Below are positions 33,644-59,464 of a stretch of 64,000 nt of DNA, one piece after another; position 1 is the first letter of the stretch, and the number at the start of each line of letters is the position of its first letter. This DNA is from Adhaeribacter arboris. GTDB taxonomy: Bacteria; Bacteroidota; Bacteroidia; Cytophagales; Hymenobacteraceae. Location: the NCBI RefSeq assembly GCF_003023845.1, contig NZ_PYFT01000001.1, positions 1,488,001 to 1,552,000 on the forward strand, in the 5' to 3' direction. Below the pieces are notes generated by a model. That model did no database searches and had not been told where the DNA came from. It worked only from the letters and a program-made list of their open reading frames with translations. The translations under genes and the position numbers were made by a program.

Positions 33644-34948
33644 TTAAGCCAGTTGGTATGCCTCCACCTGCTTCGCTTTGCGGGTAAGTAAATGGATAAT
33701 AATCCAGGCGGTTAAATAGGTAAAGCCGCAAATGGTAAACAGCAAGTTATAACCCGCAGAAATATTACCCTGCGCTTTATAACTATCGAGTAAATATCCT
33801 ACCAATATCGGAAAAAAAATACCACCTACGGCTCCGGCCATGCCCCCAATGCCTACCACGGAACTTACGGCTTCTTTCGGGAACATATCCGAAGCGGTCG
33901 TGAAAACGTTGGTGGCCCAGGCCTGGTGTACCGCCACCGCTAAACTAATTAATCCTACGGCCACCCATACATCCGTCGCGAACTGAGCCAGAATAATGGC
34001 TAATTCTAAAATGGCAAAAATAAATAAAGCGGTTTTCCGAGCTTTTAAAGTAGGCATTCCCCGTTTTATCAGGTACGATGAAAAGTAACCCCCGCCAATG
34101 CTACCAACCGTAGTAGCCGCATAGATTATCATTAAAGGCAGACTTGGTTTTTTTAAATCTAAATGAAAAGTAGAGGCAAAATAAGAGGGCAGCCAGAACA
34201 AGAAAAACCAGAAAATAGGATCGATTAGGCCTTTGCCGGTAATAAAGGCCCAGGTTTGCGGGAAAGTAAATAATTTATACCATTTAATAGAACCGGCATC
34301 CGACTGAATATTAGTTTCCAGATCTTGTCCGGAAGTAATATAGTTTAACTCAGCGGTGGATAAACGTTTCTGCCGGGAAGGTACTTCGTAAAAAACTAAC
34401 CAGAAAATCAACCAAACAAAACCTAATGCCCCCGTAATCCAAAAAACTTCCTGCCAACCGTAATATCTTAAAATCCAAGGTACAATTAATAAAGCCATTA
34501 CTACGCCAATGCTGGTGCCGGCATTAAAAATACCGGTGGCTTTTGCTCTTTCACTCTTCGGAAACCACTCGGCTACGGCTTTCATGGCCGCCGGAAAATT
34601 TCCGGCTTCGCCAACACCCAAACCCAACCGGGCTATACCAAACCCAAACGCACTGCGGGCAATGGCATGCAGCATTGCGGCAACGCTCCATACCACCACG
34701 GTAATAGTGTAACCTAGCTTGGTACCAATTTTATCTATTACCCGCCCCGAAACTAAGAGACCAATAGCATAAGCGGCCGTAAAAGCCATTACAATGCGGG
34801 CAAAATCAGTTTCCGTCCAGTTAAATTCTTTTTCGAGAGTAGGCTTTAATAAACCAATTATTTGGCGGTCCAGGTAATTAATGGTAGTAGCCGTAAATAA
34901 TAGTCCTACTATAACCCAGCGGTAGTTCCCCATTTTAATACGCGGCAT
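33644..34948 (-). CDS. MFS sugar-acid transporter, ExuT-like (ACS family)
   Basis: 434 residues with 12 membrane helices. 'GNYRWVIVGLLFTATTINYLDRQIIGLL' near the N-terminus and 'ARLGLGVGEAGNFPAAMKAVAEWFPKSERAKATGIFNAG' are hallmarks of the anion:cation symporter family of hexuronate and galactonate transporters. A start at 34933 (MGNYRWV) is equally plausible. It lies 206 bases downstream of dgoK on the same strand, so it is likely co-transcribed under the LacI operator, and probably imports a sugar acid or 2-keto-3-deoxy sugar acid. Confidence 0.88.
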   Translation of the reverse strand: MPRIKMGNYRWVIVGLLFTATTINYLDRQIIGLLKPTLEKEFNWTETDFARIVMAFTAAYAIGLLVSGRVIDKIGTKLGYTITVVVWSVAAMLHAIARSAFGFGIARLGLGVGEAGNFPAAMKAVAEWFPKSERAKATGIFNAGTSIGVVMALLIVPWILRYYGWQEVFWITGALGFVWLIFWLVFYEVPSRQKRLSTAELNYITSGQDLETNIQSDAGSIKWYKLFTFPQTWAFITGKGLIDPIFWFFLFWLPSYFASTFHLDLKKPSLPLMIIYAATTVGSIGGGYFSSYLIKRGMPTLKARKTALFIFAILELAIILAQFATDVWVAVGLISLAVAVHQAWATNVFTTASDMFPKEAVSSVVGIGGMAGAVGGIFFPILVGYLLDSYKAQGNISAGYNLLFTICGFTYLTAWIIIHLLTRKAKQVEAYQLA

Positions 34949-35154
34949 AAAAGTATGTTCTGGCTTTTATTTAACAGCAAATAGTTAATAGACTCACTTA
35001 ACTTTAGAACTTAATGATTTATTAAACCTGGTCCAATTTCTAGCTAAACCATTCCCGCATTCTAATTACCTCTAGTCATCGCTAAGCTTCAAAATCCATT
35101 AGAAATTACAGGCATTGCTTTCCAGCATAGTGGTGAGTTATGTATAATTTCTGA

Positions 35155-36153
35155 TCAGATAGGAGTGAGCTGCTGCTCAAATATCCGGACTTGCCCCACC
35201 ATGGCCGCTTTGTCAATTATTTCCGGCGAAACAACAAGGGTTTGGTCCGTTAACTGCAGTTCTTCTATGGCTCTTTGGTAAAAAGGATACAAATTACTTC
35301 CGCTACTTAAAACTATTTGCGGCACAGTTTTTTGTTGCAAGCTTCTTAATTCGGTACCAATCAATAAGCCACTTAAATAAAAAAAATTTTGCGCTTTGGT
35401 AAGGTGGTTAAATAGTTGATTCGTCCGGACAGAAAATAAGGTATGCAGAATAGTAGCTTTGGCAGATTCCTGAACTCCTCTACTAAAACCTTCCCAATCT
35501 GCCTCGGTTAACTTTTCTTGCTTTGGATTTTTAATGGAGTTTTTTAAAATACTGTGCTGGGCTATTAAATTAAAAAACTCACCCGTCATATAAGTCTGAA
35601 AATTTATGATCGCGTTGTTTTGTACCTGGATGTGCTTGGAATGAGTACCCGGAAAAACAAAAACTATTTCTTTTTGCTTGCTATCCGGCAAGTTCATTAA
35701 ATGCACTAAGCCAATCAACTGAGTTTCTTCACCCCGCATTACATCGCGTTGATTTCGGACCCCTGAGATTAATACGGTTTCGTGCGAAAATTCGGGTTGT
35801 TTCTCAAATGACCTAACAGTAGCTTTACTACCATCTAAAGCAAAAGGCACCTCTGCATAGGCAAGTTCTTCCAGACCAATGGAGGAAGATGCCATCCCCG
35901 ATAACACCACCGGAATATTATTTAAGTCAACTCCCAGTTTAGTAGCTAATACATTAATTTGCTGCTGTAACTTCTGCAGAAAGAATTCTTTCTGCGAAAT
36001 ATTCTTATCCGTACTTTCTTTCCAGGCATTATAGGTGCTGGCAATCCCTTCTTGTCCGGAAACTTCGTCTATAATCTGCAACTCCTGGGTATTTACCCAA
36101 CTTAAGCGCAAACTAGACGTGCCCCAATCACAGCATAGTAAAGTATTTCTCAT
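35155..36153 (-). CDS. dgoK: 2-dehydro-3-deoxygalactonokinase DgoK
   Basis: 332 residues of the DgoK family. N-terminal 'CDWGTSSLRLSWV' is the phosphate-binding loop of the ASKHA fold, 'VVLSGMASSSIG' and 'FVFPGTHSKHIQV' (about 170) are diagnostic, and 'MRGEETQLIG' is present. It phosphorylates 2-dehydro-3-deoxygalactonate (KDGal) in the cytoplasm. No signal peptide is present. Divergent from the LacI regulator, with a LacI-type operator in its promoter region. Confidence 0.92.
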   Translation of the reverse strand: MRNTLLCCDWGTSSLRLSWVNTQELQIIDEVSGQEGIASTYNAWKESTDKNISQKEFFLQKLQQQINVLATKLGVDLNNIPVVLSGMASSSIGLEELAYAEVPFALDGSKATVRSFEKQPEFSHETVLISGVRNQRDVMRGEETQLIGLVHLMNLPDSKQKEIVFVFPGTHSKHIQVQNNAIINFQTYMTGEFFNLIAQHSILKNSIKNPKQEKLTEADWEGFSRGVQESAKATILHTLFSVRTNQLFNHLTKAQNFFYLSGLLIGTELRSLQQKTVPQIVLSSGSNLYPFYQRAIEELQLTDQTLVVSPEIIDKAAMVGQVRIFEQQLTPI

Positions 36154-36303
36154 GAAGATATGAGTTGGTAAAATAAAGCCGGTACGTATTAATTAGTCCG
36201 GGAAAATAATTCCGAAAGAACCTTGAATGGTTTGTAAACTTACTTAAATTTTGAAGTGAGTATTCTAAGGCTACCTTTCTCTTTCCTCACTTAAAACGGA
36301 AAG

Positions 36304-36612: not shown

Positions 36613-36640
36613 TTTGTTTAAACGATTAACCTTATGTTTG
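36613..36640 (+). promoter_or_regulatory. lacI promoter with overlapping LacI-type operator
   Basis: A TTTG -33 element (36613-36616) is followed by the near-palindrome TTAAACGATTAA (36618-36629) and an exact TAnnTTTG -7 box (TATGTTTG, 36633-36640). The spacing is 16 bases. This places transcription start near 36647, before the GTG start at 36671. The arrangement implies autorepression. The 350 bases from 36154 hold nothing else recognisable apart from a half-site ACGATTAA at 36557. Confidence 0.55.
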
Positions 36641-36670
36641 ATTTGTGTTTCCCCAACAGCTGTTTACCAA

Positions 36671-37696: not shown

Positions 37697-37709
37697 GTTT
37701 TATTTGATT

Positions 37710-37727
37710 TTTGCTTAATCGATTAAC
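37710..37727 (+). promoter_or_regulatory. LacI-type operator upstream of the dehydratase gene
   Basis: TTTG (37710-37713) is followed by C and the perfect 12-bp palindrome TTAATCGATTAA (37715-37726). The geometry equals that at the lacI promoter. The -7 position (TATTCACT from 37730) is a poor match. Confidence 0.6.
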
Positions 37728-37764
37728 AATATTCACTAATCTATTTAAATTATTTATCAGTATT

Positions 37765-39006
37765 ATGCAAAGAAGACACTTCTTAAAGTCAGCTATGCTC
37801 GGTTCTGCGGCCATGTTGGTAGGTTTTCCTCTGATGAAAGCAGAAGCAGCATCGAAAATGAAAATAACGAAGATCCGGTATTACAGCGCTCCCGGCTATA
37901 ACAAACCTTTGTTTAACCAGGCGCGAGGCATCGTGGAAATTGAAACCAGTGGTGGCATTATCGGCATTGGCGAAGGCGGTTCTAAAGATATGATTGAGCA
38001 ATGCGCGCAAATGATGATCGGGGAAGATCCTTTTCGGATTGAACATATCTGGCAAACCTTGTACCGGGGCATGTTTTACCCACCCGGCCGGGAAAAGCTG
38101 CATGCTTTAGGTGCCTTGGAAATGGCGCTGTGGGATATTAAAGGTAAAGCCTTAAATGTACCAGTTTATGAGTTGCTCGGCGGCGCTACCCGCGATTACG
38201 TAGAATGTTATGCTACTGGTTTTCGGGCCTCCAAAGCCAAAGACGAAGACCAACGCGCCCGGGATTGTATTGAAGCCGGTTTACGCGCTTACCGAATTGG
38301 CCCCACCGGCGGCAATGGCGATACTCCTTTTGATTTTTACGAAAACGCGAAGAAAACCATTGCGTTTTGCCAAAGAATAGATGCCGCGGTGGGCGGTTCC
38401 GGCAAGTGGGCCATTGACTTACACACCCGTTTTGACACCCCCGAAGCTATAAAAATATGTACCGCGCTAGAACAATTAGAGCCTTTTTTTGTGGAGGATC
38501 CCATTCGTTCCGAAAATCCGGAGGTATTTAAAACGCTTCGCCCCATGCTCAAAGTACCTTTAACCGTAGGCGAACAATTTGGCGACCGTTGGGATATAAA
38601 CGCTTTAATCGAACAGCATTTAATTGATTATTCCCGCGTTACCTTGCCCAATACCGGAGGTATTACTGAGTTTAAGAAAATTGTAGCCCTTGCCGAAACC
38701 CATTATGTGGGCATGATCCCGCATTTTACCGGGCCATTGTCTACGGCAGCTTTAGTGCATGTTTTAGGTTCGAGCAGCCCCATTCGCGCCATGGTAGAAC
38801 TGGCGGGCGGGGAACCGGAAAAAATACCTTACTTCAACGAAGATTACGTAAATTTTAAAAATGGCAAGCTCTACCTCAATCCCAGTCCGGGTTTGGGAGT
38901 AAAGTTCAACCCTAAAAAAGCCGATTTTGTAATGGAGATTACCACTAATACCAAATTTCCGCATCCCATTCTGCATAGCCCGGATGGTGCCGTGCATAAC
39001 TGGTAA
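37765..39006 (+). CDS. Enolase-superfamily sugar-acid dehydratase with Tat signal
   Basis: 413 residues from ATG 37765; the longer TTG frame at 37711 overlaps the operator region. The N-terminus 'MQRRHFLKSAMLGSAAMLVG' is a twin-arginine signal, cleaved near AEAA. The mandelate racemase/muconate lactonizing fold follows: 'ALEMALWDIKGKALNVPVYELLGG', 'AIDLHTRF' (metal Asp), 'FVEDPI' (metal Glu), 'VGEQFGDR' (metal Glu) and 'IPHFTGPLSTAA' (catalytic His). Closest in character to galactonate dehydratases, which dehydrate D-galactonate to KDGal, the substrate of DgoK encoded nearby. Exact substrate unproven. Confidence 0.82.
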   Translation: MQRRHFLKSAMLGSAAMLVGFPLMKAEAASKMKITKIRYYSAPGYNKPLFNQARGIVEIETSGGIIGIGEGGSKDMIEQCAQMMIGEDPFRIEHIWQTLYRGMFYPPGREKLHALGALEMALWDIKGKALNVPVYELLGGATRDYVECYATGFRASKAKDEDQRARDCIEAGLRAYRIGPTGGNGDTPFDFYENAKKTIAFCQRIDAAVGGSGKWAIDLHTRFDTPEAIKICTALEQLEPFFVEDPIRSENPEVFKTLRPMLKVPLTVGEQFGDRWDINALIEQHLIDYSRVTLPNTGGITEFKKIVALAETHYVGMIPHFTGPLSTAALVHVLGSSSPIRAMVELAGGEPEKIPYFNEDYVNFKNGKLYLNPSPGLGVKFNPKKADFVMEITTNTKFPHPILHSPDGAVHNW

Positions 39007-39331: not shown

Positions 39332-40693
39332 ATGGAAGAATTAGACAAAGACGTACTGGAAAGCCGCAGAGAACATTTAAAAAAAATAGGCTTAGGCGCA
39401 ACTGCCGGGATATTAGGTTTATTTGGCACGCCGGAATCGCGGGCTGACCAACGGGTTACTCCGGCTTATGCCAAAGGCATGAAGCCCGTTAAGATTAAAA
39501 GTGTAAAAGCCATTGGTACAGCTCCCCAAGGTTCTAACTTAATCGTAGTAAAAGTAGACACCACCGAACCGGGTTTGTATGGTTATGGCTGTGCCACTTT
39601 TACCCAACGGGCCGAAGTAGTAGTAACTGCCATTAATAACTACCTGAATGATTTATGTACCGGCAAAGACGTCGACAATATTGAAGATGCCTGGCAATCG
39701 ACTTACGTTAGTTCTTACTGGCGCAACGGACCGGTGCTCAATAATGCTTTGAGCGGATTAGATCAGGCCCTGTGGGATATTAAAGGCAAAAGAGCCGGTA
39801 TGCCGGTGTATCAACTACTAGGGGGCAAAGTGCGCTTCGCGGTTCCTTGCTACACCCACGCTAACGGCAAAACGCCCGAAGAAACCGCCGACGACGCGAA
39901 ACGGATTATGGACAGCGGCTTTAAATACGTACGGGTGCAGCAAGGTGGCTACGGCGCTACGGCTATCTCCTCTAAACCCGATTTTAAAGATGCCGGCTTT
40001 GGTGGGGCGGATGATCAATACATGAACCAAACCGCCTACCTGAAATCGGTACCGAAACTTTTTGAAACGGCCCGAAAAGTGTGCGGCGAAGAAGTAGAAA
40101 TACTCCACGATATTCACGAACGGCTGGACCCGATGGATTCCATTAACCTGATTAAAGCTCTGGAAGACTATCGGCCCTTCTTTATTGAAGATCCTTTTTC
40201 GCCCGAAAATCCGAAATGGTTTAAAATGCTCCGGGAGAACACCACCGTACCGATTGCTATGGGTGAGTTGTTCAATAACCAGAACGAATGGAAAGAAGCC
40301 ATGATCAACCAATGGTTCGATTACATCCGGATTCACGTGTCACAAATTGGTGGTATTACGCCGGCCATGAAAGTAGCTCGTTTAGGCGAATGGTTTAACG
40401 TAAAAACCGCCTGGCACGGTCCGGGTGATGTATCGCCGGTTGGACATTCGGCTCAATGCCACATGGATTTGGCCATTTGGAATTTTGGTATTCAGGAAGC
40501 CGTGAGCTTTAATGACAAGACTTTAGAAGTATTTCAGGGTTGCCCTACCATGAACAAAGGCTACATGTCGGTGAATGAAGTACCTGGTTTAGGAGTAGAA
40601 GTGAATGAGAAAGCAGCGGCAAAATACCCTATTTCCAACAAAGCGGGTAACTGGCAAGTACGTAAATTCGATGGCACTATCATCCGGCCTTAA
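39332..40693 (+). CDS. Enolase-superfamily dehydratase, ManD/RspA-like, with Tat signal
   Basis: 453 residues. A twin-arginine-type leader 'SRREHLKKIGLGATAGILGLFG' (about 11-32) precedes the enolase-superfamily barrel. Hallmarks are 'ALWDIKGKRAGMPVYQLLGGK', 'EILHDIHERLDPMD' (metal Asp/His), 'FFIEDPFSPEN' (metal Glu), 'PIAMGELFNN' (metal Glu) and 'AWHGPGDVSPVGHSA', a signature of the mannonate dehydratase (ManD/RspA) subgroup. Such enzymes dehydrate D-mannonate or D-gluconate to 2-keto-3-deoxygluconate, with varied activity. Export by Tat would be unusual for this chemistry. Confidence 0.82.
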   Translation: MEELDKDVLESRREHLKKIGLGATAGILGLFGTPESRADQRVTPAYAKGMKPVKIKSVKAIGTAPQGSNLIVVKVDTTEPGLYGYGCATFTQRAEVVVTAINNYLNDLCTGKDVDNIEDAWQSTYVSSYWRNGPVLNNALSGLDQALWDIKGKRAGMPVYQLLGGKVRFAVPCYTHANGKTPEETADDAKRIMDSGFKYVRVQQGGYGATAISSKPDFKDAGFGGADDQYMNQTAYLKSVPKLFETARKVCGEEVEILHDIHERLDPMDSINLIKALEDYRPFFIEDPFSPENPKWFKMLRENTTVPIAMGELFNNQNEWKEAMINQWFDYIRIHVSQIGGITPAMKVARLGEWFNVKTAWHGPGDVSPVGHSAQCHMDLAIWNFGIQEAVSFNDKTLEVFQGCPTMNKGYMSVNEVPGLGVEVNEKAAAKYPISNKAGNWQVRKFDGTIIRP

Positions 40694-41267: not shown

Positions 41268-42725
41268 ATGAGAATAAAGTCTTTTTACCTTGTTATTTTA
41301 GGTTGTTTTATCTGCTCCGCTATCCAGGCCCAAATGCAGGTAAGCGCTAACAATCGGTACTTAACCAATCGAAAAAACCAACCCTTTTTCTGGTTAGGCG
41401 ATACGGATTGGGAGTTATTTCACCGACTTACCCGCGAAGAAGTTGAACAGCTTTTAGAGACCCGCCGACAACAAGGTTTTAATGTCATACAGGCGGTTGC
41501 CTTAGCGGAATTTAACGGCATCCGGGAGCCTAACCGATACGGCGATGTGCCGCTCGTAAACGATGATCCCACTAAATTAGCTATAACTCCCGGGGCCAAC
41601 CCTGCAAACGCGGAGCAATACGATTACTGGGACCACGTCGATTTTGTGATTAAATCCGCCGCTAAAAAAGGCTTGTACATTGGTTTATTACCCACCTGGG
41701 GCGATAAAGTAACTCCGAAGTGGGGCGAAGGTCCCGTGGTATTTAATCCGGAAAACGCCGAAGTATATGGTTCTACGCTGGCTAAAAGATACAAAAATCA
41801 ATGGAATGTAATCTGGATTTTAGGCGGCGACCGGCCGGCAAAATATAAATCGGACCGGGAAGGTCAAATGAAAGAATACGATCAAGTACCTATTTGGCGG
41901 GCGATGGCTCAGGGTATCCAAAGCGTTTGGGGCAAAGAAGCTTTCATCAGTTATCATCCGTCCGGCGGTTCTAATTCTACGTCGCAGCAAATTCACAACG
42001 AGGATTGGCTGGATATGAACGCTTTTCAATCCGGCCATGGCGCCCGGGAAGCACCCGCCTGGGATTACGTAACCCGCGATTTAGCCCTTACTCCCCCGAA
42101 GCCTACTCTGGATATGGAACCTTGTTACGAAGACCATCCGGTAAATCCCTGGGATGGTAAATGGACCCGGGTCCGGGGTTATTTCACGGCCTACGACGTA
42201 AGAGCCCGCATTTACCGGGGAGTTTTTGCCGGGGCCTGCGGCGTTACGTATGGGCATCATAGTATCTGGCAGTTTGTAAATCCTAAACTGTATAAAACCA
42301 TTAACCTGGGCGATACTTTAATCACCTGGCAACAAGCTGCTTTGGCTCCCGGCGCCAGCCAAATGCAATATTTGAAAAACCTGATGTTATCGCGCCCTTA
42401 TTTCTCCCGGATTGCCGACCAAAGCTTGATTTTATCGAATAGAGGAAGCACTTATTTGGATGTAGTTTCTGCTACCCGCGATGAAATAGGCGCTTACGCC
42501 ATGGTTTATCTGCCCCAAAACAAACCGGTTACCATTGACTTATCTAAAATTTCCGGACAGGCCAAAGCCATTTGGTGGTACGATCCGCGGACTGGAAAAG
42601 CAACCCCTGGAAAAACAGTTAAGGCAAATGACAAACAAACTTTTACGCCGCCCGCCGAAGGGAAAGATTGGGTCTTGGTAATTGATGATGCTTCTCGGCA
42701 ATTTAAAGCTCCGGGCAAAATATAG
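41268..42725 (+). CDS. Apiosidase-like glycoside hydrolase (DUF4038, GH140-like)
   Basis: 485 residues with a signal peptide (ending AIQAQ, about residue 21). The domain starts '[36 protein letters not shown]', diagnostic for DUF4038/GH140, and runs through '[10 protein letters not shown]', '[10 protein letters not shown]', 'DMEPCYED' (acidic pair) and '[13 protein letters not shown]'. A C-terminal beta domain ('[12 protein letters not shown]') follows. GH140 members remove apiose from pectin RG-II side chains. Secreted. A SusD relic lies directly upstream. Confidence 0.85.
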
Positions 42726-44718: not shown

Positions 44719-44920
44719 GCTGTGTTTCCGGTAATAAGATATAAGTAGTTGCTCGTTGTTCGCTTAATTAATCTATGAGGATCAGCAAGTTATCTCACCT
44801 GGTAGTCTACACTAACTTCGTCGAAGTACTTAATACTTTGAGAATTATAAATACAATACATAAAGCCTTCTGAGGAAAACATCCGGCAGTTGCTTTAGTT
44901 TAAAAAAGCTCCCCGTTTCA

Positions 44921-49139: not shown

Positions 49140-49186
49140 AGTATTCTGATGCTTTTTTGGATAAGACACTATTACCTTTATCTATT

Positions 49187-52100
49187 TTATAATCGCACGC
49201 TTAAATTAAAACCGTAGGTGCGCGTAGAAGGCAAACCAAAGTTTTCTAAGCCTTGCGCGTTGCCGCTGCTGTAATTAGATTCGGGATCGATGTTTTTGGT
49301 GCTGCGATAGAGTATTAGCAAGTTGCGGCCTACAAAAGAGATATTAGCCGACTGAAAAGGAGTTTTGGCTAACAATTTAGCAGGCAACGTATAGCCAATG
49401 TTGAAAGAACGGAGCTTGATAAAATCGGCCTTTTCGACAAATTCGCTGGTGATGGTGTTCCAGATGCCTTTGTAATACGTTTCGGCCGGAACGTTTTTCG
49501 TGAAGGCTTCGCCTTTTTCGTTTACCCCGGTAACGGTTACCCCGGTTTCTCTGACATTATTTTCAACGGTGCGTTTATCTAAACCAAACTGGGTTCCGTA
49601 AGCGCTAGTAGCCGAATAAATACTGCCCCCCCACCGGCTATCGAGTAAAAAGCTTAAATTAAAGTTTTTAAAGGAAAAATCGTTATTTAAACCTACGGCT
49701 AAAGGCGGTACTCCTTTACCCAAAGGCACAACCGGGCCGGCAATAGGCAAACCATTCGAGCTGTTGTAAATTATTTGCCCGTTGGCATTGCGGGAATACG
49801 TACTACCGGCAATCTGACCAAAAGGCTGCCCCTGGTAATGGGTAATCCAGCCGTTTTCGGTACGAGTAGTGGCACCCGGTAAACGCAAACTGGTTAAACC
49901 TAATTCCGGCGCAATACTAATAACTTCATTTTTATTATAAGCGGTATTTAAAGCCATGTTCCAGGATAAACCACTTTCGCTGGTAATCGGAGAACCACTT
50001 AACATTAGCTCAATGCCCCGGTTTTTCATTTTACCTACGTTCAAAGCCACGGCGGTATAGCCACTGGATTGCGGCAAAGTAGCATTTACAATATCGTTGG
50101 TGGTAGTCCGGTCGTAAAGAGTAACATCTACTCCCAGGCGGTTATTCAAAATTTTGGTTTCAATACCTACTTCGGTGGTGGTAGAGGTATAGGGCGTTAA
50201 TAAAGTGGGTAAAGTGGGGTTGGTGACATTCATTAAGGTTTGCCCTAGATGCTGTTGTGATTGCGCCGAAAAAGTTTGGGTAATCGCGTAAGCCGTGGGT
50301 GCTCCGCCCCCTACCTGCGCCCAGGAAGCACGAATTTTAGCGTAATCTAACCAGCCGGGTTTAGTAGCCCAGGCATCGGAAGCTACAAAACTCAAACCCA
50401 CCGAAGGGTAGAACAAACTGTTATTCTTGGGGTCTAAGGTAGAGAACCAATCGTTGCGGCCGGTTAAGGTTAAATACAAATAATTATTAAAATCAATATC
50501 GGCGGAGGCAAACAAAGAATTTATTCCTAGTTCACTGTAGTTAATAGCAAAATTCTGGCTTCTGCCGTTCGCAATAAAGTATTGGTAGGGCCGGTTAAAC
50601 TGACCGCTGGAAAGGCTAAGGCCATCGAAAGTATTGCGCATTTGATTGCCGCCCGCAAAAACATTCACGGAAAAACGACCTACATCTTTCCGGAAACCAA
50701 TGGTACCCTCCAGGTTGGTTTCGGATTGTACGCTCTGGTCGGTAGTCATGGAGCCGGGCTGGTTAAAGGCGAGTCCGGTTGGTTGAATGGCGTAAGCATC
50801 AAAGTTTACCTGGTCAATTCCGAAGCGGGCCCGCACATACAGCGCATCGGTAATATTGTAAGTAGTATTAAAAGAACCAATAAACCGTTTTTTAGTATCG
50901 CCGTTTTGTACTTTGTTAATGGCAAAGTACGGGTTGGTGGCGTATTCATAATCGCTCCATTTAAATTCGTTGCCGGTAGGTAAGTAGCCGGGCAATAAAG
51001 TTTCGATTGGGATATTGGTGGCCAATAATTGAGCGCCGGTATTCGGGTTTAATTGAAAATCCGCTAAATAGGTCCGGTTTTTTACGTCTTCGATATTGTA
51101 CTGGGCGTTGCCTTCGAACACAATTTTCTTGGCCAGAGTAGCGCTGGCGCTCAGGTTAAAGGTTTTAATGTTCATGGTATTGTGCGGCACAATCGCTTTG
51201 TTATCCAGGTTAGAAGCTGAGAACCGGAAGCGGGCAATTTCATTACCGCCGGTCAGCGCCAGGGTATTCACGAAGTTGGTACCGGTTTGATAGAAATTTT
51301 TAAGATTATTTTTCTGCGCGGTATAAGGACGGGGCTGACCATCCGGTTGAATGACCGGTGAATTATCTAACCGGGCTCCCCACGACATGCGGCCGTTGGC
51401 AATGGCTTGCGCCTGCGTAGTTGGCGCGGCTCCCAACGAACCCGAACCATACTCGTATTGCCAATCCAATAAATTAACCGCTTGCTGCAAGGTATAATTG
51501 GTATTGTATTCTACCCCGATTCCCTTTTGCGCTTTACCCGATTTGGTAGTAATTAAAATGACTCCGTTGGCGGCCCGGGCGCCGTATAAAGCGGCGGCGG
51601 TACCTCCTTTTAGCACCGAAATACTTTCAATATCGTCGGGGTTGATACTGGCTAAGCCATCGCCCCGGTCTACGCCGCCAAAAGTACCCGCCGCACCTTG
51701 GTTATTATTCGTAATAGGCATGCCGTTCACCACATACAAAGGCTGATTTTCGCCGTTTAAAGAGCCGTTTCCGCGAATCACAATCCGGCTCGAACTGCCC
51801 GGACCACCCGATGTACCCGAAGCGGTAACCCCAGCTACGCGTCCAGCTAAGGCGTTACCTACATTTATTTCCCGGGCCTGGGTTAATTTTTCGCCGCCCA
51901 CTTCCGAAACCGCGTAGGTTAAGGCTTTCTTTTCCCGCTTTATGCCTAAGGCCGTTACTACTACTTCATCTAAAGTTTTGGTATCGTCTAATAATATGAC
52001 ATTAATGGTAGCATTCCCGTTAAAAGGTACTTCTTTGGTAGTATAGCCAATAAAAGAAAAAACGAGCGTGCCGTTGTCAGCGGGCGCCGTAATAGAATAA

Positions 52101-52615
52101 GAACCGTCGGAGCCGGAAGCCGTGCCCGTGGTGGTTCCTTTTACTAAAACGGTTACCCCAGGTAAAGCTTCGCCGGTAGCCGAAGTAATTTTACCGGTAA
52201 TGGTGGAGGCAACCATCCTCTTTTTGCTGGAAGCTAATACGGTATGAGTGTTATCGGCGGTAGGCACTAAACCACTGGTTTTTAATCTTTTCAGCACTAT
52301 TTCGCCGCCGACTGGTTCAAAATCTATCCGTAAAGGAGTGAATAAGTCTGTAAGTACCTGGGCTAACTTTTTATTAGAAGCATTTACCGAAACTTTGCGG
52401 GTAGCATCAATTATTTGGGTACTGTAAATAAAATGAATACCGCTGCGATCTTCCATTTCTCTTAGAATAACGCTCAGTTCGGTTTTTTCTAATTTTAAGG
52501 TTATAATTTGGTTTAAGGCTGTTTTCGCTTTATTATCTTCGGCTAAAGCATTTCGGTCCACTAGCAAAAAAGTGACGGATAAAAATAATAATTTCAACCA
52601 GAGTCTTTTTTTCAT
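49187..52615 (-). CDS. SusC/RagA TonB-dependent receptor with STN domain
   Basis: About 1142 residues from ATG 52615 (MKKRLWLKLLFL); a start five residues earlier is possible. After the signal peptide come an STN domain (about 30-85, 'LSVILREMEDRSGIHFIYS'), a carboxypeptidase-regulatory-like domain (about 135-220, 'GKITSATGEALPGVTVLVKG'), the plug ('GRVAGVTASGTSGGPGSSSRIVIRG') and a long barrel ending 'NLSVRL'. The STN domain marks a receptor that signals to a FecR-type anti-sigma factor, encoded next to it. It imports glycans with SusD. Confidence 0.95.
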   Translation of the reverse strand: MKKRLWLKLLFLSVTFLLVDRNALAEDNKAKTALNQIITLKLEKTELSVILREMEDRSGIHFIYSTQIIDATRKVSVNASNKKLAQVLTDLFTPLRIDFEPVGGEIVLKRLKTSGLVPTADNTHTVLASSKKRMVASTITGKITSATGEALPGVTVLVKGTTTGTASGSDGSYSITAPADNGTLVFSFIGYTTKEVPFNGNATINVILLDDTKTLDEVVVTALGIKREKKALTYAVSEVGGEKLTQAREINVGNALAGRVAGVTASGTSGGPGSSSRIVIRGNGSLNGENQPLYVVNGMPITNNNQGAAGTFGGVDRGDGLASINPDDIESISVLKGGTAAALYGARAANGVILITTKSGKAQKGIGVEYNTNYTLQQAVNLLDWQYEYGSGSLGAAPTTQAQAIANGRMSWGARLDNSPVIQPDGQPRPYTAQKNNLKNFYQTGTNFVNTLALTGGNEIARFRFSASNLDNKAIVPHNTMNIKTFNLSASATLAKKIVFEGNAQYNIEDVKNRTYLADFQLNPNTGAQLLATNIPIETLLPGYLPTGNEFKWSDYEYATNPYFAINKVQNGDTKKRFIGSFNTTYNITDALYVRARFGIDQVNFDAYAIQPTGLAFNQPGSMTTDQSVQSETNLEGTIGFRKDVGRFSVNVFAGGNQMRNTFDGLSLSSGQFNRPYQYFIANGRSQNFAINYSELGINSLFASADIDFNNYLYLTLTGRNDWFSTLDPKNNSLFYPSVGLSFVASDAWATKPGWLDYAKIRASWAQVGGGAPTAYAITQTFSAQSQQHLGQTLMNVTNPTLPTLLTPYTSTTTEVGIETKILNNRLGVDVTLYDRTTTNDIVNATLPQSSGYTAVALNVGKMKNRGIELMLSGSPITSESGLSWNMALNTAYNKNEVISIAPELGLTSLRLPGATTRTENGWITHYQGQPFGQIAGSTYSRNANGQIIYNSSNGLPIAGPVVPLGKGVPPLAVGLNNDFSFKNFNLSFLLDSRWGGSIYSATSAYGTQFGLDKRTVENNVRETGVTVTGVNEKGEAFTKNVPAETYYKGIWNTITSEFVEKADFIKLRSFNIGYTLPAKLLAKTPFQSANISFVGRNLLILYRSTKNIDPESNYSSGNAQGLENFGLPSTRTYGFNLSVRL

Positions 52616-52818
52616 AAGTATAATTTCCATAGGTGAGTTGATTTTTACGTTTGATTCAGGTAAAACAAGTGAGGCAAGGCAATAGCTTTCCAGGCATCTT
52701 TCAGATGCTTTAGCGAACAGTAGAGTTACATAGGCGGAATACCCGGGGGTTTACCTATTGGGGAGGAGGAGTACTTTTCTAAATCATAAGCGGTATTTTT
52801 TAGTCTTTATTTCGAGGG

Positions 52819-53874
52819 TTATTCTGCGCACCCTTCTCCAAAAATTATAAATTTATCGTCAGCGGATTTGTAGTTAGCACCAATGGATTTACAAATCATT
52901 TCGAGTTTTACTTCCAGGGATTGGTCCTGAAAGTAAGCGGTAAGGGTACATTTATTTAACTGCGCCTTCTCTAACCGGATAGAAACTTTATATTGGTCTT
53001 CTAACTGTTGGATAACTTCTGTTAAAGGAGTTTCTTTAAATACTAATTTGGCTGCGGTTACTTGATGCGCCCAGTAGTTGGGTTGAATCTTTCTTTTGAC
53101 TAAAGTATTAGTTGTGGCATTAAACCGGGAACTTTCGTTAGGTCGTAAATAAAGGCTTTCTTGTTCCGGCTCTAAAAACCGGAGAAAAGCGGGCAGGCTA
53201 TGTACGGTTGGTGTTACGGCTACTTTTCCGGTACGCACCAAAACATCCGTCACTTGCTTAGGAGCATTAAAATCAACTTCAAAACTGGTTCCTAACACTT
53301 CTACTTCAATGGCATCGCCCAGCACCCGGAAGGGATGCTGTGGGTCGCGGGCTACGTCCAAAAATGCTTTCCCATTTAACATAATTTTCCTAATTGAGTC
53401 AGTAAACTTTTTAGGATATTGAAGCCTAGCTCCCGGTTCTAACCAAATTAAGGTGCCGTCGCTTAAAGAAACCCGTAACGGGGCTACTGTTTTATTTTCC
53501 TGTTTCAAGTAAGCTATTTCCGGTCCGGAGAAACTTCCCGGAAACTTTTTCGAATATTCTTTTAGTCCAAAAATCAAAAAAACTACCAATCCCACTCCTA
53601 CCCAAACCGTTGCTTTTCGGCTCAGCTTAAAATTATTTGGTTTCGTATCCTTCTTTACGGACCGGTAATTTACTTGCTGAATCTTTGCATGTAAGGCTAA
53701 CCAGTTGCGGAATTTTACCTGTTCTGTCTCCTTTGTACTAATCAGATGAGAAGGTTGCGCTAAATTTATTTTTTCGTACCAATCTGCAATAATGGCTTCT
53801 TCTTCCGGGGTAGCTTTACCAGCTAAGTATTTTTGCAAAAGCTTTTCCAGCTTCTCTGGTTCATTCCAATTCAT
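52819..53874 (-). CDS. FecR-type anti-sigma factor
   Basis: 351 residues. A cytoplasmic N-terminal segment (about 1-85) with 'LLQKYLAGKATPEEEAIIADWYEK' is followed by a membrane helix (about 87-104, 'VWVGVGLVVFLIFGL'), the FecR domain (about 125-235, 'VSLSDGTLIWLEPGARLQYPKKF') and a C-terminal DUF4974 region ('LVFKETPLTEVIQQLEDQYKV'). It transmits the SusC signal and controls the sigma factor encoded directly upstream. Confidence 0.93.
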   Translation of the reverse strand: MNWNEPEKLEKLLQKYLAGKATPEEEAIIADWYEKINLAQPSHLISTKETEQVKFRNWLALHAKIQQVNYRSVKKDTKPNNFKLSRKATVWVGVGLVVFLIFGLKEYSKKFPGSFSGPEIAYLKQENKTVAPLRVSLSDGTLIWLEPGARLQYPKKFTDSIRKIMLNGKAFLDVARDPQHPFRVLGDAIEVEVLGTSFEVDFNAPKQVTDVLVRTGKVAVTPTVHSLPAFLRFLEPEQESLYLRPNESSRFNATTNTLVKRKIQPNYWAHQVTAAKLVFKETPLTEVIQQLEDQYKVSIRLEKAQLNKCTLTAYFQDQSLEVKLEMICKSIGANYKSADDKFIIFGEGCAE

Positions 53875-54055: not shown

Positions 54056-54637
54056 CTAGTGAGATGAAAAGCAGATTAGGAAAAAGGGAATAACAAAATC
54101 TTTTAAAAAGACTTTCAGATGTTTCAGCGATTTGGTAATATGAAACTCCACCGCTTTATCGGTTAACTGAAGCTCATAAGCTATTTCTTTATTCGATAAA
54201 TTCTGGAATCTGCTTTTTTCAAAAATTTGCCTGGTTTTATTAGATAAAGCCTCCAGCGCTTGTTTAAAAGTAGAATTTAATTCTTCGGTTAAAACTTGTT
54301 CTTCGGTAAAGTTGGCCGCAGCCCGCGCATGTTCCGCAGCGGCTTTGTATTTATTACGGACTAATTGGGCTTGGTAATAATTAATAACAGAGTATTTAAC
54401 GGCCGTAAGCAAGTAAGCATCTAAACTACTTTTAATAACGATTAATTTACGTTTGAGCCAAAGGTTTAGAAATATTTCTTGTACCAATTCTTCCGCAACT
54501 TCTTTCTGACCGGTTTTGCGATAGGCTACCAGGTATAATTTGCTCCAATACAAATCATAAATCTGCTTAAAAGATTGGGCAGAATCCTGGCCCAAGCCAC
54601 TTAAAAGTTCTTCATCCGTTAAACTGCTCTGGCTCAA
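54056..54637 (-). CDS. ECF RNA polymerase sigma factor (Bacteroidota expansion family)
   Basis: 193 residues with region 2 (about 22-90, 'FKQIYDLYWSKLYLVAYRKTGQKEVAEELVQEIFLNLW') and region 4 (about 125-180, 'LEALSNKTRQIFEKSRFQNLSNKEIAYELQLTDKAVEFHI'). It is the FecI-like partner of the adjacent FecR, so the order sigma / anti-sigma / SusC / SusD / two dehydratases forms a signal-controlled uptake locus. The likely output is induction of the SusCD genes. Confidence 0.93.
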   Translation of the reverse strand: MSQSSLTDEELLSGLGQDSAQSFKQIYDLYWSKLYLVAYRKTGQKEVAEELVQEIFLNLWLKRKLIVIKSSLDAYLLTAVKYSVINYYQAQLVRNKYKAAAEHARAAANFTEEQVLTEELNSTFKQALEALSNKTRQIFEKSRFQNLSNKEIAYELQLTDKAVEFHITKSLKHLKVFLKDFVIPFFLICFSSH

Positions 54638-54912: not shown

Positions 54913-54934
54913 CTTAAAGTTTTACTTTCTGCTT

Positions 54935-57137
54935 TTAAGGTAAGGCAAAAGCCACGTATTTACCTCCGGCTTTTAACCCTCGGGCGCCTCCGGCGGCAAT
55001 TACCACGTATTGTTTGCCATTTACCAGGTAGGTAATGGGTGTAGCAAAGCCACCGGCCGGTAATTGGTATTCCCATACTACCTCCCCGGTTTTCTTGTTA
55101 AAAGCCCGGATTTTCTCGTCGCGGGTGGCGGCAATAAATACCAAACCTCCGGCCGTGGCTACTGGTCCGCCATAACTTTCGGTGCCGGTTATCGGGATAC
55201 CTTTTTTCGTTAATTCCGGGTATTCGCCTAAAGGTACCCGCCACAAATACTCGCCGGTATTTAAATCAATGGCGTTGAGCGTACCCCAAGGAGGTTTAAT
55301 GGCCGGATACCCGTTCTGATCGGTAAATTTCTTCCAAACTTTATTTACGTAGCGCGGCACGTACGGAAAGCTTTCCTTTTTTGCTGTTTCCGAAGGACCG
55401 GTTTCGCTGTGTTCGCTTTCAGCTTTGTCGGCGGCGGTTTCGGTGTTTAATAAATAACGCACAATCGCCGCGCGATTTTCCTTTGGTATATGCTCGAAAG
55501 CCGGCATCCGGCCGCTGCCTTTGGCCAGAATAGCCATAATACCTTCCGCATTATTTCTTTTACCAATATCTACCAGGTTGGGAAAATCCGAGCCGCTGCC
55601 TTTTCTGTCCTTGCCGTGGCAAACGGCGCAATTCGCCAGGTACAAACCGTTTCCTTTCGACAGGGAAGCCATTTCCTTATTTCTTTCTTCCTGCGACACC
55701 ATTTGCAATATCCAGGGATCGTCATTGGCATTTTGGTACAAAATACCATCCGGATCAATGGAGTTGCCGCCCCATTCCGCGCCACCACTGTACCCGAACA
55801 AAATAGTGCCTTTTATCACTGGGCGGGGTAAACTTATGATCAGTGGGCATTTCTGCGAAGCGTTCTTTTACGTAGGCGTAGGCTTCCGGGGAGATATTCG
55901 TGATATCGGCTTCGGTAAAAACCTGGTGGGCAAAAGGCGCCGGTTTTAACGGAAACTTCTGAGTAGGGTAAGGGTGCTCACCGGGTAAAGCCGGCGAAGT
56001 AGGCACCGGCCGTTCTTCTACCGGAAACAAAGATTTACCGGTATCGCGGTCTAATACGTATACCAGTCCGTCTTTCGTAGCTTGCACCACTGCCTCTACT
56101 TTTTTACCCTTATGCTTTAAGGTAGTTAAATTAGGCGGCGACGGATGATCACGGTCCCATAAATCGTGGTGAATGGTTTGATAGTGCCATTTTCTTTGTC
56201 CGGTTTCAGCATCCAGGGCCATAATACAGGTGGCAAATAAGTTTTCGCCTTCGCGTTCACCCCCGTAAAAATCAGAGGCTGGCGAACCGGTTCCAAAGTA
56301 AACCGTACCTCTTTTTTCGTCGAGCACCAGGCCGCTCCAGTTGTTGGCGGCCCCTATGTATTTATAAGCATTGGGCGGCCAGGTTTCGTAGCCATATTCG
56401 CCGGGTTGCGGCACCGTATGGAAAACCCACTTTAATTGGCCGGTAATAATATCAAAAGCCCGGATGTGACCTGGTGCCGCATCGCCCGATTCGGATACGC
56501 TGGAACCCATTACGATGGTATTTTTGTACACTACTCCTGGCGTGGAAGCCGTTACCGATAATTTACTCACATCGTGGTCCAAATTGGTTTGAAGCCCTTC
56601 GTGTAAATCAACGGTGCCGTTCTTGCCAAAGCTTTCTATTTTTTGACCGGTTTTAGCATTAATGGCGTACAAACTGGAACCCACCGAATACAAAATTCGC
56701 TGATCGTCGCCGTTTTCCCAATAGCAAACTCCCCGGTTCGTATTAAATTTGGTGTCTTCTTTTAAAGGCTCAAATAGCCAGAGCTGCTCCCCGGTGCCGG
56801 CTTTCAGGGCAAAAAGTTTAAGTTCGGAAGTAGTGCCGTACAGAACTCCCTTTACTACTATGGGCTGACATTGAATAGCTTTTGGCCGCTGGGGTTTGGG
56901 ATTATTTGGGGCCGGTTTTTCGGCAGTATCGTACATCCAGGCTACCTGCAGATTTTTTACATTATCCAGATTAATCTGGCTCAAAGACGAGTAGCGGTTA
57001 CCGGCTTTATTGCCGCCGTAAGTAGGATAATCTACTTCTTTTTGATTCGTAACAGCATTACTTTTTTCGCGACTGGGATTCAAACAGCTTCCTAAAAATA
57101 ACAAGCCTACGGCTAAAAACTTAATTGGATACTTCAT
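54935..57137 (-). pseudogene. PQQ-dependent sugar dehydrogenase with cytochrome c domain, frameshifted
   Basis: Starts at ATG 57137 with a lipoprotein leader ('GLLFLGSC'). The quinoprotein propeller part ('NRYSSLSQINLDNVKNLQVAWMYDT', 'YFGTGSPASDFYGGEREGENLFATCIMALD') runs to 'FTPPSDK', where the frame breaks at an A4 stretch (55811-55814 on the plus strand). Removing one base would join it to 'GTILFGYSGGAEWGGNSIDPDG', giving about 733 residues. A cytochrome c domain ('CAVCHGKDRKGSG', CxxCH) lies between propeller segments. The family oxidises aldoses to lactones/aldonates in the periplasm and passes electrons to the respiratory chain. As sequenced, the product is truncated. Confidence 0.82.
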
Positions 57138-57589
57138 TGAGTAAGTTTAGCTTTGTTATAGTTGATAAAATTATAAATGTAGAAAGTTGAAACAATTTCA
57201 GGGTTGAATATATCAAGTATTCAAACTTTAAAAATAAGAAAAATTAACGTCCGCTTTTTTAAAAAACTCTATTTTGAAAGAATTAATATTTTGGCAGATT
57301 TTACATTTCTGAATGTCTTTGCGGCAAAACTGTTACCTATACGGCTGGTTTTGATGTTCCTGTGCTCGGGTAATTTCAAAAAATTTCACCTTGCGTTTTA
57401 AAATTTTCTTTTTTAACTAGGAAATCTTTTTAACCAAGTACCAAGGTCATGAAAGGGAGTTATCTTTAATTAGTCACTACTTAACCCCTTAAGTCTTTCT
57501 TTTTCAAGATCCTTAAAAAGGAGCACGCCAGAATCAGGCAAGCCGGATTTTTGAATTTATATTGTATTCATGCTCAAATGCCTTCTATA
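57138..57589. other. Divergent intergenic region, no gene seen
   Basis: About 450 AT-rich bases between two divergent dehydrogenase genes. A 65-codon frame at 57204-57401 is present but looks like a chance frame. No exact promoter element is assigned. Confidence 0.4.
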
Positions 57590-59464
57590 ATGCGGATAAA
57601 CCAATTAGTACCTAAATTTATCTTGTCCAGAAAAACACGGCGGCCCCAAACTTATATTGGTTTACTGCTTTTTAGTGGAGTTATTGCTTTTCAAGGGTGC
57701 GTAAGCGGAAAAAATAAGGAAAATCAACCAGTCCGTACGAACCAACAAACCAGCGCCAATAACCCGGTTTTCCCGGCAAACCACTCCGGAAATACCGGAG
57801 CTAGTGCCTCTAAAAATCCCTATTCCACCGACGAACATGATATCATACACGGCAAGCAGCTTTTTCAATCGAACTGTACGGCCTGCCATAACTTTGAGCA
57901 GAAAGGCATTGGGCCTAATTTAGCCGGGGTAACTACCCGCGATACGCCCGAATGGCTGACCAAATTTGTCCGTAATGCCCCGGAGGTAATTAAGTCCGGC
58001 GATGCCAAGGCGATTAAGCTTTATGAAGAATACAAGCAAATGATGCCGCCCTTTACCGCTTTTACTCCGGGGGAGGTGCAATCCATTCTGGCTTATTTAC
58101 ATGCGCAGCAACCTGCCTCGGCCATAGACGAAAACACCGCTAAACTAGGACCTCCCCTATCCGACCCTATTCCTACCAAAATTCCAAAATCGGAACTGCT
58201 TCTTAGCCTGGAATCAATTACTACCGCCCCGGCTACCGCCGAAAAAATACCCTTGGCCCGCATTAATACCATGGTGGTTTTACCGGGTAAAAAGAACCGG
58301 GTTTTTATTCAGGATTTACGCGGAATACTCTACGAAATGGAAGGTAAAAACCTGCGGCAATACCTGGATATGAGTAAGGAACGGCCGGCTTTTATTTCAA
58401 CTCCCGGTTTAGCCACCGGTCTTGGCAGCTACGCTTTTCACCCGGAATTTTATAAAAACGGTTTTTTTTATACCACCCACACCGAAAAGGCGAACACCGC
58501 GCCCGCCGATTTTGCTTACGCCGATTCCATTAAAGTTGCTTTGCAATGGGTGCTTACCGAATGGAAATTGCCTGATCCCCATGCCTCGGTTTTTTCCGGA
58601 AAAGGCCGGGAATTATTGCGGGTAAACATGGTGAACCAAATTCACGGGGTGCAAGAGATTACTTTTAATCCATTCGCCAAACCAAGTTCCCCGGATTACG
58701 GCTTATTATATATTGGTGTAGGTGATGGCGGGGCGGCGGAGCAGAAGTATTCTTTTTTATGTAATTCGAATAAAACGGTTTGGAGTACTGTTCTCCGGAT
58801 TGATCCCCGGGGCAACAACAGTAAAAACGGACATTACGGCATTCCGGCTATTAACCCATTTGCCCAGGATAAGGACCCCGAAACATTAGGTGAAATTTTT
58901 GCCACCGGTTTTCGCAACCCTAACCGGATTTACTGGGCGCCGGATGGTAAAATGCTGATTTCGGATATTGGCTTAACCAACATTGAAGAATTAAACATTG
59001 GCAAAGCCGGCGCTAATTACGGTTGGCCCGCCCGCGAGGGCACTTTCTTACTCAATTATCAGGGTAAAATGGACAAAGTTTATGCTTTACCCGCCGACGA
59101 TGCCCAGTATAATTATACCTACCCGGTAGTTCAGTTTGACCACGACGAAGGCAATGCTTTTTCGGCTGGCTTTGTGTACAATGGTTCTATTCCTTTACTC
59201 AAAAACAAATACATTTTTGGTGATATCGTGAGTGGCCGCGTGTTTTTCGTAGAGAACAATCAGTTAAAATTAGGACAACAAGCTCCTATCCAGGAGTTCA
59301 CGCTGCAAATGGATGGTACTACTTCTACTTTCCAAACCATTACCGGCAATAAAAAAACCGATTTGCGATTTGGTATGGGACTTCAGAACGAATTGTATCT
59401 CTATACCAAAACCGATGGTAAGATTTACCGGGTAAATAACTGCTTGCCGAACAAAAAAATTTAA
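57590..59464 (+). CDS. Cytochrome c / PQQ-dependent sugar dehydrogenase (GSDH-type) lipoprotein
   Basis: About 624 residues from ATG 57590 (MRINQLVPKF); ATG 57578 is an alternative. The leader ends 'GVIAFQGC', a lipobox. A cytochrome c domain (CTACH, about residue 98 of this start) with 'GIGPNLAGV' and 'MPPFTAFTPGEVQSILAYL' is followed by a glucose/sorbosone dehydrogenase propeller ('VVLPGKKNRVFIQDL', 'HGVQEITFNPF', 'LYIGVGDGG', 'GEIFATGFRNPNRI'). It oxidises sugars outside the cytoplasm. It is divergent from the other PQQ dehydrogenase. Confidence 0.85.
   Translation: MRINQLVPKFILSRKTRRPQTYIGLLLFSGVIAFQGCVSGKNKENQPVRTNQQTSANNPVFPANHSGNTGASASKNPYSTDEHDIIHGKQLFQSNCTACHNFEQKGIGPNLAGVTTRDTPEWLTKFVRNAPEVIKSGDAKAIKLYEEYKQMMPPFTAFTPGEVQSILAYLHAQQPASAIDENTAKLGPPLSDPIPTKIPKSELLLSLESITTAPATAEKIPLARINTMVVLPGKKNRVFIQDLRGILYEMEGKNLRQYLDMSKERPAFISTPGLATGLGSYAFHPEFYKNGFFYTTHTEKANTAPADFAYADSIKVALQWVLTEWKLPDPHASVFSGKGRELLRVNMVNQIHGVQEITFNPFAKPSSPDYGLLYIGVGDGGAAEQKYSFLCNSNKTVWSTVLRIDPRGNNSKNGHYGIPAINPFAQDKDPETLGEIFATGFRNPNRIYWAPDGKMLISDIGLTNIEELNIGKAGANYGWPAREGTFLLNYQGKMDKVYALPADDAQYNYTYPVVQFDHDEGNAFSAGFVYNGSIPLLKNKYIFGDIVSGRVFFVENNQLKLGQQAPIQEFTLQMDGTTSTFQTITGNKKTDLRFGMGLQNELYLYTKTDGKIYRVNNCLPNKKI

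Follow-up and report, generated by a model that had tools for sequence, protein, structure and literature searches.

We analysed a stretch of 64,000 nt (the window) from the genome of Adhaeribacter arboris (G000; 7.25 Mb, two contigs), covering positions 1,488,001 to 1,552,000 of contig NZ_PYFT01000001.1. Between window positions 33,644 and 59,464 it encodes sugar-acid dehydratases carrying twin-arginine translocation (Tat) leaders, the 2-keto-3-deoxygalactonate kinase DgoK, a carrier of the major facilitator superfamily (MFS), a LacI-family regulator and a sugar dehydrogenase dependent on pyrroloquinoline quinone (PQQ-DH). Sugar-acid dehydratases of these kinds are normally intracellular. Comparison with relatives makes it fairly probable that the genes belong to a Bacteroidota form of the De Ley-Doudoroff pathway divided between the two sides of the inner membrane, in which oxidation and dehydration would be exported and the resulting 2-keto-3-deoxy acid imported and phosphorylated. 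The features on which this model is built, and the Tat-leader UxuA pair of a neighbouring unit, are the following:

33644..34948, minus strand: MFS carrier of galactonate/hexuronate type (PF07690), proposed importer of the 2-keto-3-deoxy acid; adjoins dgoK/dgoA in relatives
35155..36153, minus strand: DgoK, 2-keto-3-deoxygalactonate kinase, leaderless (PF05035, 213 bits)
36618..36629, plus strand: candidate LacI-type operator upstream of lacI, one mismatch to TTAATCGATTAA
36671..37696, plus strand: LacI-family regulator (PF00356 and Peripla_BP), start set from relatives (MNKK)
37715..37726, plus strand: candidate LacI-type operator TTAATCGATTAA upstream of ENO1
37765..39006, plus strand: ENO1, Tat-leader dehydratase of the enolase superfamily (MR_MLE_N, MR_MLE_C), leader at about residues 1-29
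39332..40693, plus strand: ENO2, Tat-leader ManD-like dehydratase of the enolase superfamily (MR_MLE_N, MR_MLE_C), leader at about residues 1-38
42980..43972, plus strand: 330-aa protein with a predicted aldose 1-epimerase (mutarotase) fold, Sec-type signal by eye
44921..46080, minus strand: UxuA1, Tat-leader protein of the mannonate-dehydratase family (PF03786), frameshifted as sequenced
46263..47446, minus strand: UxuA2, Tat-leader UxuA-family protein with a lipobox (PF03786), frameshifted as sequenced, intact in relatives
54935..57137, minus strand: PQQ-DH, lipoprotein PQQ sugar dehydrogenase with a cytochrome c domain (PF01011 and cytochrome c), frameshifted, ahead of the UxuA unit

A first-pass annotation of this DNA had read twin-arginine leaders on four dehydratases, and all four motifs (RRHFLKS, RREHLKK, RRDFIKK and RRNFLKK) were recovered at or near the positions it gave. 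ENO1 starts with MQRRHFLKSAMLGSAAMLVGFPLMKAEAA and ENO2 carries the leader ESRREHLKKIGLGATAGILGLF, the UxuA1 leader MKDNRRDFIKKSASLAAA lies in a frame differing from that of the protein body, and the UxuA2 leader MKDNRRNFLKKSTALAALSVAGLSSCSS is accompanied by a lipobox-like Cys (by eye). Its reading of lipoprotein starts on two PQQ/cytochrome c dehydrogenases held as well, with PQQ-DH showing ...LLFLGSC and a second protein, combining cytochrome c with a glucose/sorbosone-dehydrogenase (GSDH) domain, showing ...VIAFQGC, as did the lack of such a leader on DgoK and the MFS carrier. TatC is present in the genome, and among its eight MR_MLE proteins the RR leader is missing solely from the MenC-like and the epimerase-like ones.

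We scanned 84,980 species genomes with ENO1 and analysed the best 80 of 254 loci (the 80 Tat loci), ENO1 loci occurring in Adhaeribacter, Dyadobacter, Spirosoma, Larkinella, Runella, Persicitalea, Cyclobacterium, Lunatimonas, Segetibacter, Daejeonella, Pricia and other genera. Neighbour counts are lower bounds, 58 of the loci spanning at least 19 kb and the open reading frame (ORF) caller discarding the shorter of two overlapping frames. A Tat-like leader was scored by a rule of our own, i.e. RR within the first 45 residues and, starting at most 10 residues later, an uncharged hydrophobic run of 10 residues or more, and frames being too dissimilar, too short or not reaching the N-terminus were removed beforehand (2 of 47 for ENO2, 5 of 51 for ENO3, 3 of 28 for DgoA, 3 of 27 for the MFS carrier, none in the other families). 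Such a leader is present in 78/78 ENO1, in 44/45 ENO2 and in 46/46 proteins of ENO3, a third enolase-superfamily dehydratase of the relatives, and in 0/32 DgoK, 0/25 of the aldolase DgoA, 0/24 MFS, 0/44 LacI and 0/25 PQQ-DH proteins, the background being 27 of 508 unassigned neighbour proteins. The lone ENO2 exception (L182) is frameshifted and has a Tat-like leader, MKVKENNTRRNLLKGLGLG, directly upstream in another frame.

Both Arg residues are retained in all aligned proteins, i.e. in 78/78 ENO1 and in 44/44 and 45/45 members of the other two ENO families. Most of the remaining leader columns vary in ENO1, down to 8/78, and the non-RR positions are moderately conserved in ENO2; for ENO3 the conservation of RR is less telling because much of the leader is conserved. 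Relatives of UxuA1 and UxuA2 from 12 inspected loci carry RR in 15 of 16 proteins, the frame of the sixteenth (L233) being over-extended. The Tat model TIGR01409 (cut-off 16.7) gives a mixed picture, being passed by three UxuA-type relatives (21.9, 18.3 and 17.3) and by one enolase of a further cluster of this genome at 6.02 Mb (19.5) but by none of six ENO1-3 proteins. ENO1, ENO2 and ENO3 are mutually 27-31% identical, and leaderless proteins (3t6c for ENO2, DgoD for ENO3) match these two families better than the two match one another, which suggests that they gained their leaders separately. We regard export of the dehydratases as very likely.

The catalytic residues D, H, E, E and H are invariant in all aligned ENO1, ENO2 and ENO3 proteins with a spacing of 2, 24, 26 and 50, equal to that of D183, H185, E209, E235 and H285 in E. 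coli galactonate dehydratase. A single-sequence search of ENO1 against solved structures gave E 1.9e-45. In the relatives, two tested ENO3 proteins score 441.9 and 439.9 on the galactonate-dehydratase model (cut-off 311), well under the leaderless galactonate dehydratases (680-689 bits), and this is the strongest hint as to the substrate, pointing to a galactonate-type acid rather than to the mannuronate or pectin considered by the first-pass annotation. The sole support for mannuronate or pectin were the apiosidase-like and GH88-like genes of the window, neither of which found a counterpart in an ORF-based comparison of the 80 ENO1 loci, and this candidate was dropped. UxuA1 passes the subfamily model NF003027 (256.4, cut-off 191), fails the equivalog model TIGR00695 (178, cut-off 199.55) and is intact and 97% identical over 342 residues in the same-genus relative G004; for UxuA2 both the window fragment (108.4) and an unbroken relative (125.8) fail the subfamily cut-off of 191.

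Within the order, 38 of 390 sampled genomes (A. arboris included) possess an ENO1 relative of at least 73% identity, all aligned from residue 1 to 413; below these come a single broken copy (49%) and, after it, matches of at most 36%, some of them being ENO3. The 80 Tat loci hold at least 47 ENO3, 46 ENO2, 44 LacI, 42 SusC, 32 DgoK, 28 DgoA, 25 PQQ-DH and 24 MFS genes as well as nine genes for the 330-aa protein. In two Dyadobacter loci (L100, L101) a single strand encodes SusC, SusD, ENO2, LacI, ENO1, ENO3, SusC, SusD, PQQ-DH and DgoK, followed in L101 by DgoA. The order of events put forward in the first-pass annotation, i.e. oxidation and dehydration outside followed by import and phosphorylation, is supported by these fuller clusters, which encode PQQ-DH, Tat dehydratases, leaderless DgoK, DgoA and the MFS carrier. 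An aldolase is missing from the window, as had been noted, both PF01081 matches of the genome lying elsewhere. A different neighbourhood is seen in L112 (G480), where three Tat enolases stand beside zinc alcohol dehydrogenase-like and sulfatase-like frames (by eye) and DgoK is not seen; frames of this kind also occur in Cyclobacterium loci, e.g. L180 and L187.

The PQQ-DH of the window is split over two frames, the pieces matching PF01011 and cytochrome c. In 25/25 PQQ-DH proteins, for which galactose is a candidate substrate, neither Asp of the HHDLWD motif varies, nor does the Lys in ATKDG, and CxxCH is kept in all 22 that are ungapped there. Unbroken relatives score 480.7 and 486.1 on TIGR03074 and fail its cut-off of 832.65, their best stretches starting at profile positions 147 and 145. 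PqqE was above cut-off nowhere in the A. arboris genome and PqqC in 0/25 cluster-bearing genomes, control genomes also failing both cut-offs, so that these searches are uninformative. According to one study, PQQ biosynthesis is missing from the 206 Bacteroidota having the PQQ importer PqqU, such carriers come mainly from aquatic sites, and others may synthesise PQQ or acquire it by diffusion (PMC12124388). On the strength of these PqqU-bearing Bacteroidota, missing PQQ genes would not refute the pathway. The 330-aa protein has no Pfam or NCBIfam match; its AF2 model (mean pLDDT 84.3) finds in Foldseek as best match 3nre_A, a putative aldose 1-epimerase (E 2.7e-10, TM 0.54/0.61, high root-mean-square deviation), suggesting a possible periplasmic mutarotase. 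The best NCBIfam family of the MFS carrier is TIGR00893, 'D-galactonate transporter', at 238.6 bits and under the cut-off of 395.

Relatives also encode galactonate dehydratases without a leader, which are about 382 aa long and share 45-48% identity with ENO3; three of them were tested and gave the 680-689 bits cited above. No such copy was found in the A. arboris genome. Nine leaderless loci were chosen from the matches, and the four holding DgoK are all from Hymenobacteraceae (L236, L237, L238, L240). All four possess DgoA and a short-chain dehydrogenase/reductase (SDR; two typed PF00106), two possess an SMP-30-type lactonase (one typed PF08450) and none possesses PQQ-DH, whereas that SDR is matched in none of the 32 DgoK-bearing Tat loci, 16 of which have PQQ-DH. 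The SDR contrast gives a Fisher p of 1.7e-5, which is a guide only, the queries coming from these loci and the rows being related.

As for regulation, the window has the palindrome TTAATCGATTAA before ENO1 and a copy with one mismatch before lacI, which is weak on its own, 0.58 sites being expected and 12 of 100 shuffles reaching two. In the window and 91 related loci (1.71 Mb) together the motif occurs 114 times, whereas five rounds of block shuffling that preserved the composition give an expectation of 5.6; this excess is somewhat overstated because the set includes the loci used for motif discovery and at least one species twice. By downstream gene, 37 sites precede ENO1, 27 lacI and 20 SusC; 33 of the downstream starts belong to unassigned frames, and for 14 sites the nearest 350 bases contain no start. 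We consider it likely that LacI controls the unit.

These data are consistent with a model according to which a SusC/SusD pair would bring the sugar into the periplasm, the mutarotase-fold protein might provide the right anomer and the lipoprotein PQQ-DH with its own cytochrome c would oxidise the aldose, yielding the lactone or the acid. Tat-exported, folded and metal-dependent dehydratases (ENO1 and ENO2, with ENO3 in relatives) would convert the acid to the 2-keto-3-deoxy acid, which the dedicated MFS carrier would take into the cell for phosphorylation by cytoplasmic DgoK and cleavage by an aldolase, for which relatives have DgoA and the A. arboris genome has paralogues at other sites; the LacI regulator with its TTAATCGATTAA operator would control the unit. 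The joint periplasmic oxidation-dehydration route is likely. Since kinase and aldolase are leaderless, the keto acid and not the sugar acid would be the compound crossing the inner membrane through the carrier. We infer export itself, the substrate, the activities, the regulator's role and the compound carried from sequence.

Several observations weigh against such a split pathway, and three alternatives draw on them. If the enzymes were cytoplasmic, the leaders being remnants or mis-called starts, an ordinary cytosolic De Ley-Doudoroff route would operate and the carrier would import galactonate. This would agree with the characterised relatives being, to our knowledge, cytosolic and with the carrier's best family being a galactonate transporter, albeit under cut-off. 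TIGR01409 is passed by none of the six ENO1-3 proteins tested (12.9, 13.4 or unlisted), and Pfam TAT_signal stays under its cut-off on the relative of UxuA1 (14.2 vs 22.7). Weighing against the split pathway more generally, ENO1 and ENO2 fall under every curated dehydratase cut-off, with 208.7 for ENO1 on galactonate dehydratase NF010624 (cut-off 311) and 390 for ENO2 on D-mannonate dehydratase ManD NF043051 (cut-off 550), and the genome has a leaderless UxuA as well as an IlvD/EDD-type dehydratase beside a 2-keto-3-deoxy-6-phosphogluconate (KDPG) aldolase. A cytoplasmic location is hard to reconcile, however, with RR being invariant across three families of such low mutual identity, and with the leaderless DgoD of relatives pairing with an SDR, and in 2/4 loci with an SMP-30 lactonase, in place of PQQ-DH. 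Nor was a leaderless enolase-superfamily sugar-acid dehydratase seen in the A. arboris genome, and we regard this alternative as very unlikely.

The second alternative accepts export and assumes separate routes, PQQ-DH delivering electrons to respiration and the dehydratases acting on other, glycan-derived uronic or aldonic acids, with products perhaps left outside; galactonate might then be imported and dehydrated inside. Several SusC/SusD pairs and the apiosidase-like protein in the cluster would fit this, as would ENO1 and ENO2 being without assigned substrate. Within the stretch examined only 25/80 Tat loci show PQQ-DH (55 do not) and 32/80 show DgoK, the Tat loci yielded no lactonase (0/80 match the SMP-30 query), and the PQQ-DH contrast between leaderless and Tat loci does not by itself reach significance (Fisher p 0.11, again a guide only, with queries from these loci and related rows). 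Four further leaderless copies occur in Dyadobacter possessing the Tat cluster, with no DgoK nearby (L241: 689 bits), and because the leaderless dehydratase coexists with the Tat cluster these Dyadobacter may dehydrate galactonate inside too, i.e. on both sides of the membrane. Against separate routes, PQQ-DH, Tat dehydratases, DgoK and DgoA (and MFS where the stretch reaches) lie on a single strand in four genera (L099, L101, L102, L110, L113, L114), and DgoK and DgoA require the product of the dehydratases. We consider separate routes unlikely, though less so than a cytoplasmic location.

The third alternative concerns the state of the cluster in this organism and arises from comparison with four same-genus relatives (G002, G003, G004, G007). 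G003, G007 and G002 have one unit of dgoK, aldolase (PF01081) and MFS gene, and a divergent unit of lacI, ENO1 and Tat-leader ENO3. The aldolase thus lies between dgoK and the MFS gene in 3/4 relatives (173.9 vs a cut-off of 207 on the DgoA subfamily model, one protein tested); G004 has ENO3 and, as in the window, no aldolase at this position. In G003, G007 and G004 the cluster continues with SusC/SusD genes, ENO2, a second SusC/SusD pair, the apiosidase-like protein, the 330-aa protein and an intact PQQ-DH of 743-744 aa. In G004 a second PQQ-DH (733 aa), whose position the broken PQQ-DH of the window occupies, adjoins with sigma factor, FecR, SusC/SusD and three UxuA genes, all unbroken. Judged by this gene order, a cluster common to Adhaeribacter, Dyadobacter, Runella and others is present in the window in reduced form.

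The reduction counts against a working pathway here, the window copy being without ENO3, dgoA and one PQQ-DH of the relatives and having three broken genes, UxuA1, UxuA2 and PQQ-DH, the three frameshifted enzymes already recognised in the first-pass annotation. It could therefore be a decaying relic, which would be compatible with the split pathway as the best explanation for the relatives. Speaking against decay, the frames of ENO1, ENO2, DgoK, MFS and LacI are open, neither of the operator-like sites is missing, two of the three frameshifts (those of UxuA1 and UxuA2) fall in runs of seven A, typical of sequencing errors, and another enolase elsewhere in the assembly is also split. The G004 counterparts of UxuA1, UxuA2 and PQQ-DH are all unbroken, and the three frameshifts fit sequencing error or recent loss. 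Decay in A. arboris is a possibility we take more seriously than the two preceding alternatives, while still doubting it.

Returning to the split pathway, not all dehydratases of the window would belong to it. The first-pass annotation had read all four as parts of one possible pathway, which we reject because the UxuA genes have their own SusC/SusD, FecR and sigma genes, the whole sitting elsewhere in two same-genus relatives; by its arrangement the UxuA pair is a second, neighbouring unit, which may do likewise for another acid. The genes of this unit and the other features of the region are:

41268..42725, plus strand: apiosidase-like protein with Collagen_bind_2 (PF13204), Sec-type signal by eye; cluster member in G003, G007 and G004
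44287..44763, minus strand: DUF4440 protein (domain match)
47535..49169, minus strand: SusD-like lipoprotein (PF12771)
49187..52630, minus strand: SusC-like TonB-dependent receptor (PF07715 Plug, PF13715; PF07660 at 28.2 bits, just under the cut-off of 28.4)
52819..53874, minus strand: FecR-like anti-sigma factor (PF04773, PF16344)
54056..54637, minus strand: sigma factor of extracytoplasmic function type (PF04542, PF08281)
57551..59464, plus strand: lipoprotein with cytochrome c and GSDH domains (PF00034, PF07995), in a separate unit

The last of these forms one unit (57551-61784) with GH88-like and TIM-barrel proteins, the order being kept in G004, and an IS1-like transposase gene (62301-63017; sequence resemblance only) marks the right edge of the region.

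Elsewhere in the genome, C1:6017315-6031811 (L021, L022) holds SusC/SusD-like genes, three Tat-leader enolase-superfamily genes (one split) and three RraA-like proteins (PF03737, an aldolase family) with signal-like starts, and possibly encodes an extracytoplasmic route including aldol cleavage. A further MR_MLE protein with the Tat-like leader MNRRDFVKITSALVATHN is found at C1:4796402-4797790 (L008:868-2256), adjoining a cellulase-like protein with an RR leader (by eye). At C1:4692024-4695270 (L023) a PfkB-family (KdgK-like) kinase, a KDPG-type aldolase and an ExuT-like MFS carrier are encoded consecutively, with SusC/SusD-like genes after them; judged by these families this is a uronate-type route that lacks leaders and has a carrier to itself. 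As a tentative generalisation, which we hold to be conceivable rather than probable, Cytophagales and relatives might have a general extracytoplasmic sugar-acid metabolism, comprising mutarotation, PQQ-dependent oxidation and GalD-, ManD- and UxuA-like dehydratases each gaining Tat leaders, with 2-keto-3-deoxy acids being transported and the cluster at 6.02 Mb perhaps also cleaving them outside.

If the split pathway holds true, two textbook cytosolic steps would have been relocated across the membrane, with dehydrogenase and dehydratase switching compartment together, and the electrons of the oxidation would be captured directly in respiration. The usually internal 2-keto-3-deoxy acids would become, in environmental Bacteroidota, metabolites that are transported and perhaps shared, and exported 'dehydratases' otherwise taken as cytosolic would gain a role. 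Pathway reconstruction relying on names and blind to location would misplace the compartment. Among the titles and abstract beginnings of the matches listed, subscription papers and preprints being outside the scope, we found no work on Tat-exported sugar-acid dehydratases. Several relatives are named, cultured strains, allowing the model to be tested directly.

Among known systems, the leaderless dgo cluster of Hymenobacteraceae (L236, L237, L238, L240) shares DgoD, DgoK and DgoA with the cluster described here; there, DgoD lacks a leader, has 45-47% identity to ENO3 and reaches 686 and 680 bits on the galactonate-dehydratase model in two tested proteins, an SDR is present, an SMP-30 lactonase is found in two loci and PQQ-DH is missing. 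The De Ley-Doudoroff (D-galactonate) pathway has in common with the cluster a predicted aldose oxidation, a sugar-acid dehydratase, DgoK and, in relatives, a putative aldolase of the type acting on KDPG or 2-keto-3-deoxy-6-phosphogalactonate, and differs in that here an exported PQQ lipoprotein replaces the SDR, the dehydratases have Tat leaders and the carrier would import the keto acid. In Pseudomonas and acetic acid bacteria a PQQ dehydrogenase oxidises glucose in the periplasm and the product is imported and phosphorylated; oxidation alone is periplasmic in these bacteria, whereas here dehydration would be as well. The periplasmic LacABC/DUF1080 route for 3-keto-glycosides, proposed for Caulobacter, Pedobacter and others, would likewise be a multi-step sugar chemistry taking place outside the inner membrane, consisting of 3-oxidation and hydrolysis of glycosides, in contrast to the sugar-acid dehydration proposed here (PMC9007349).

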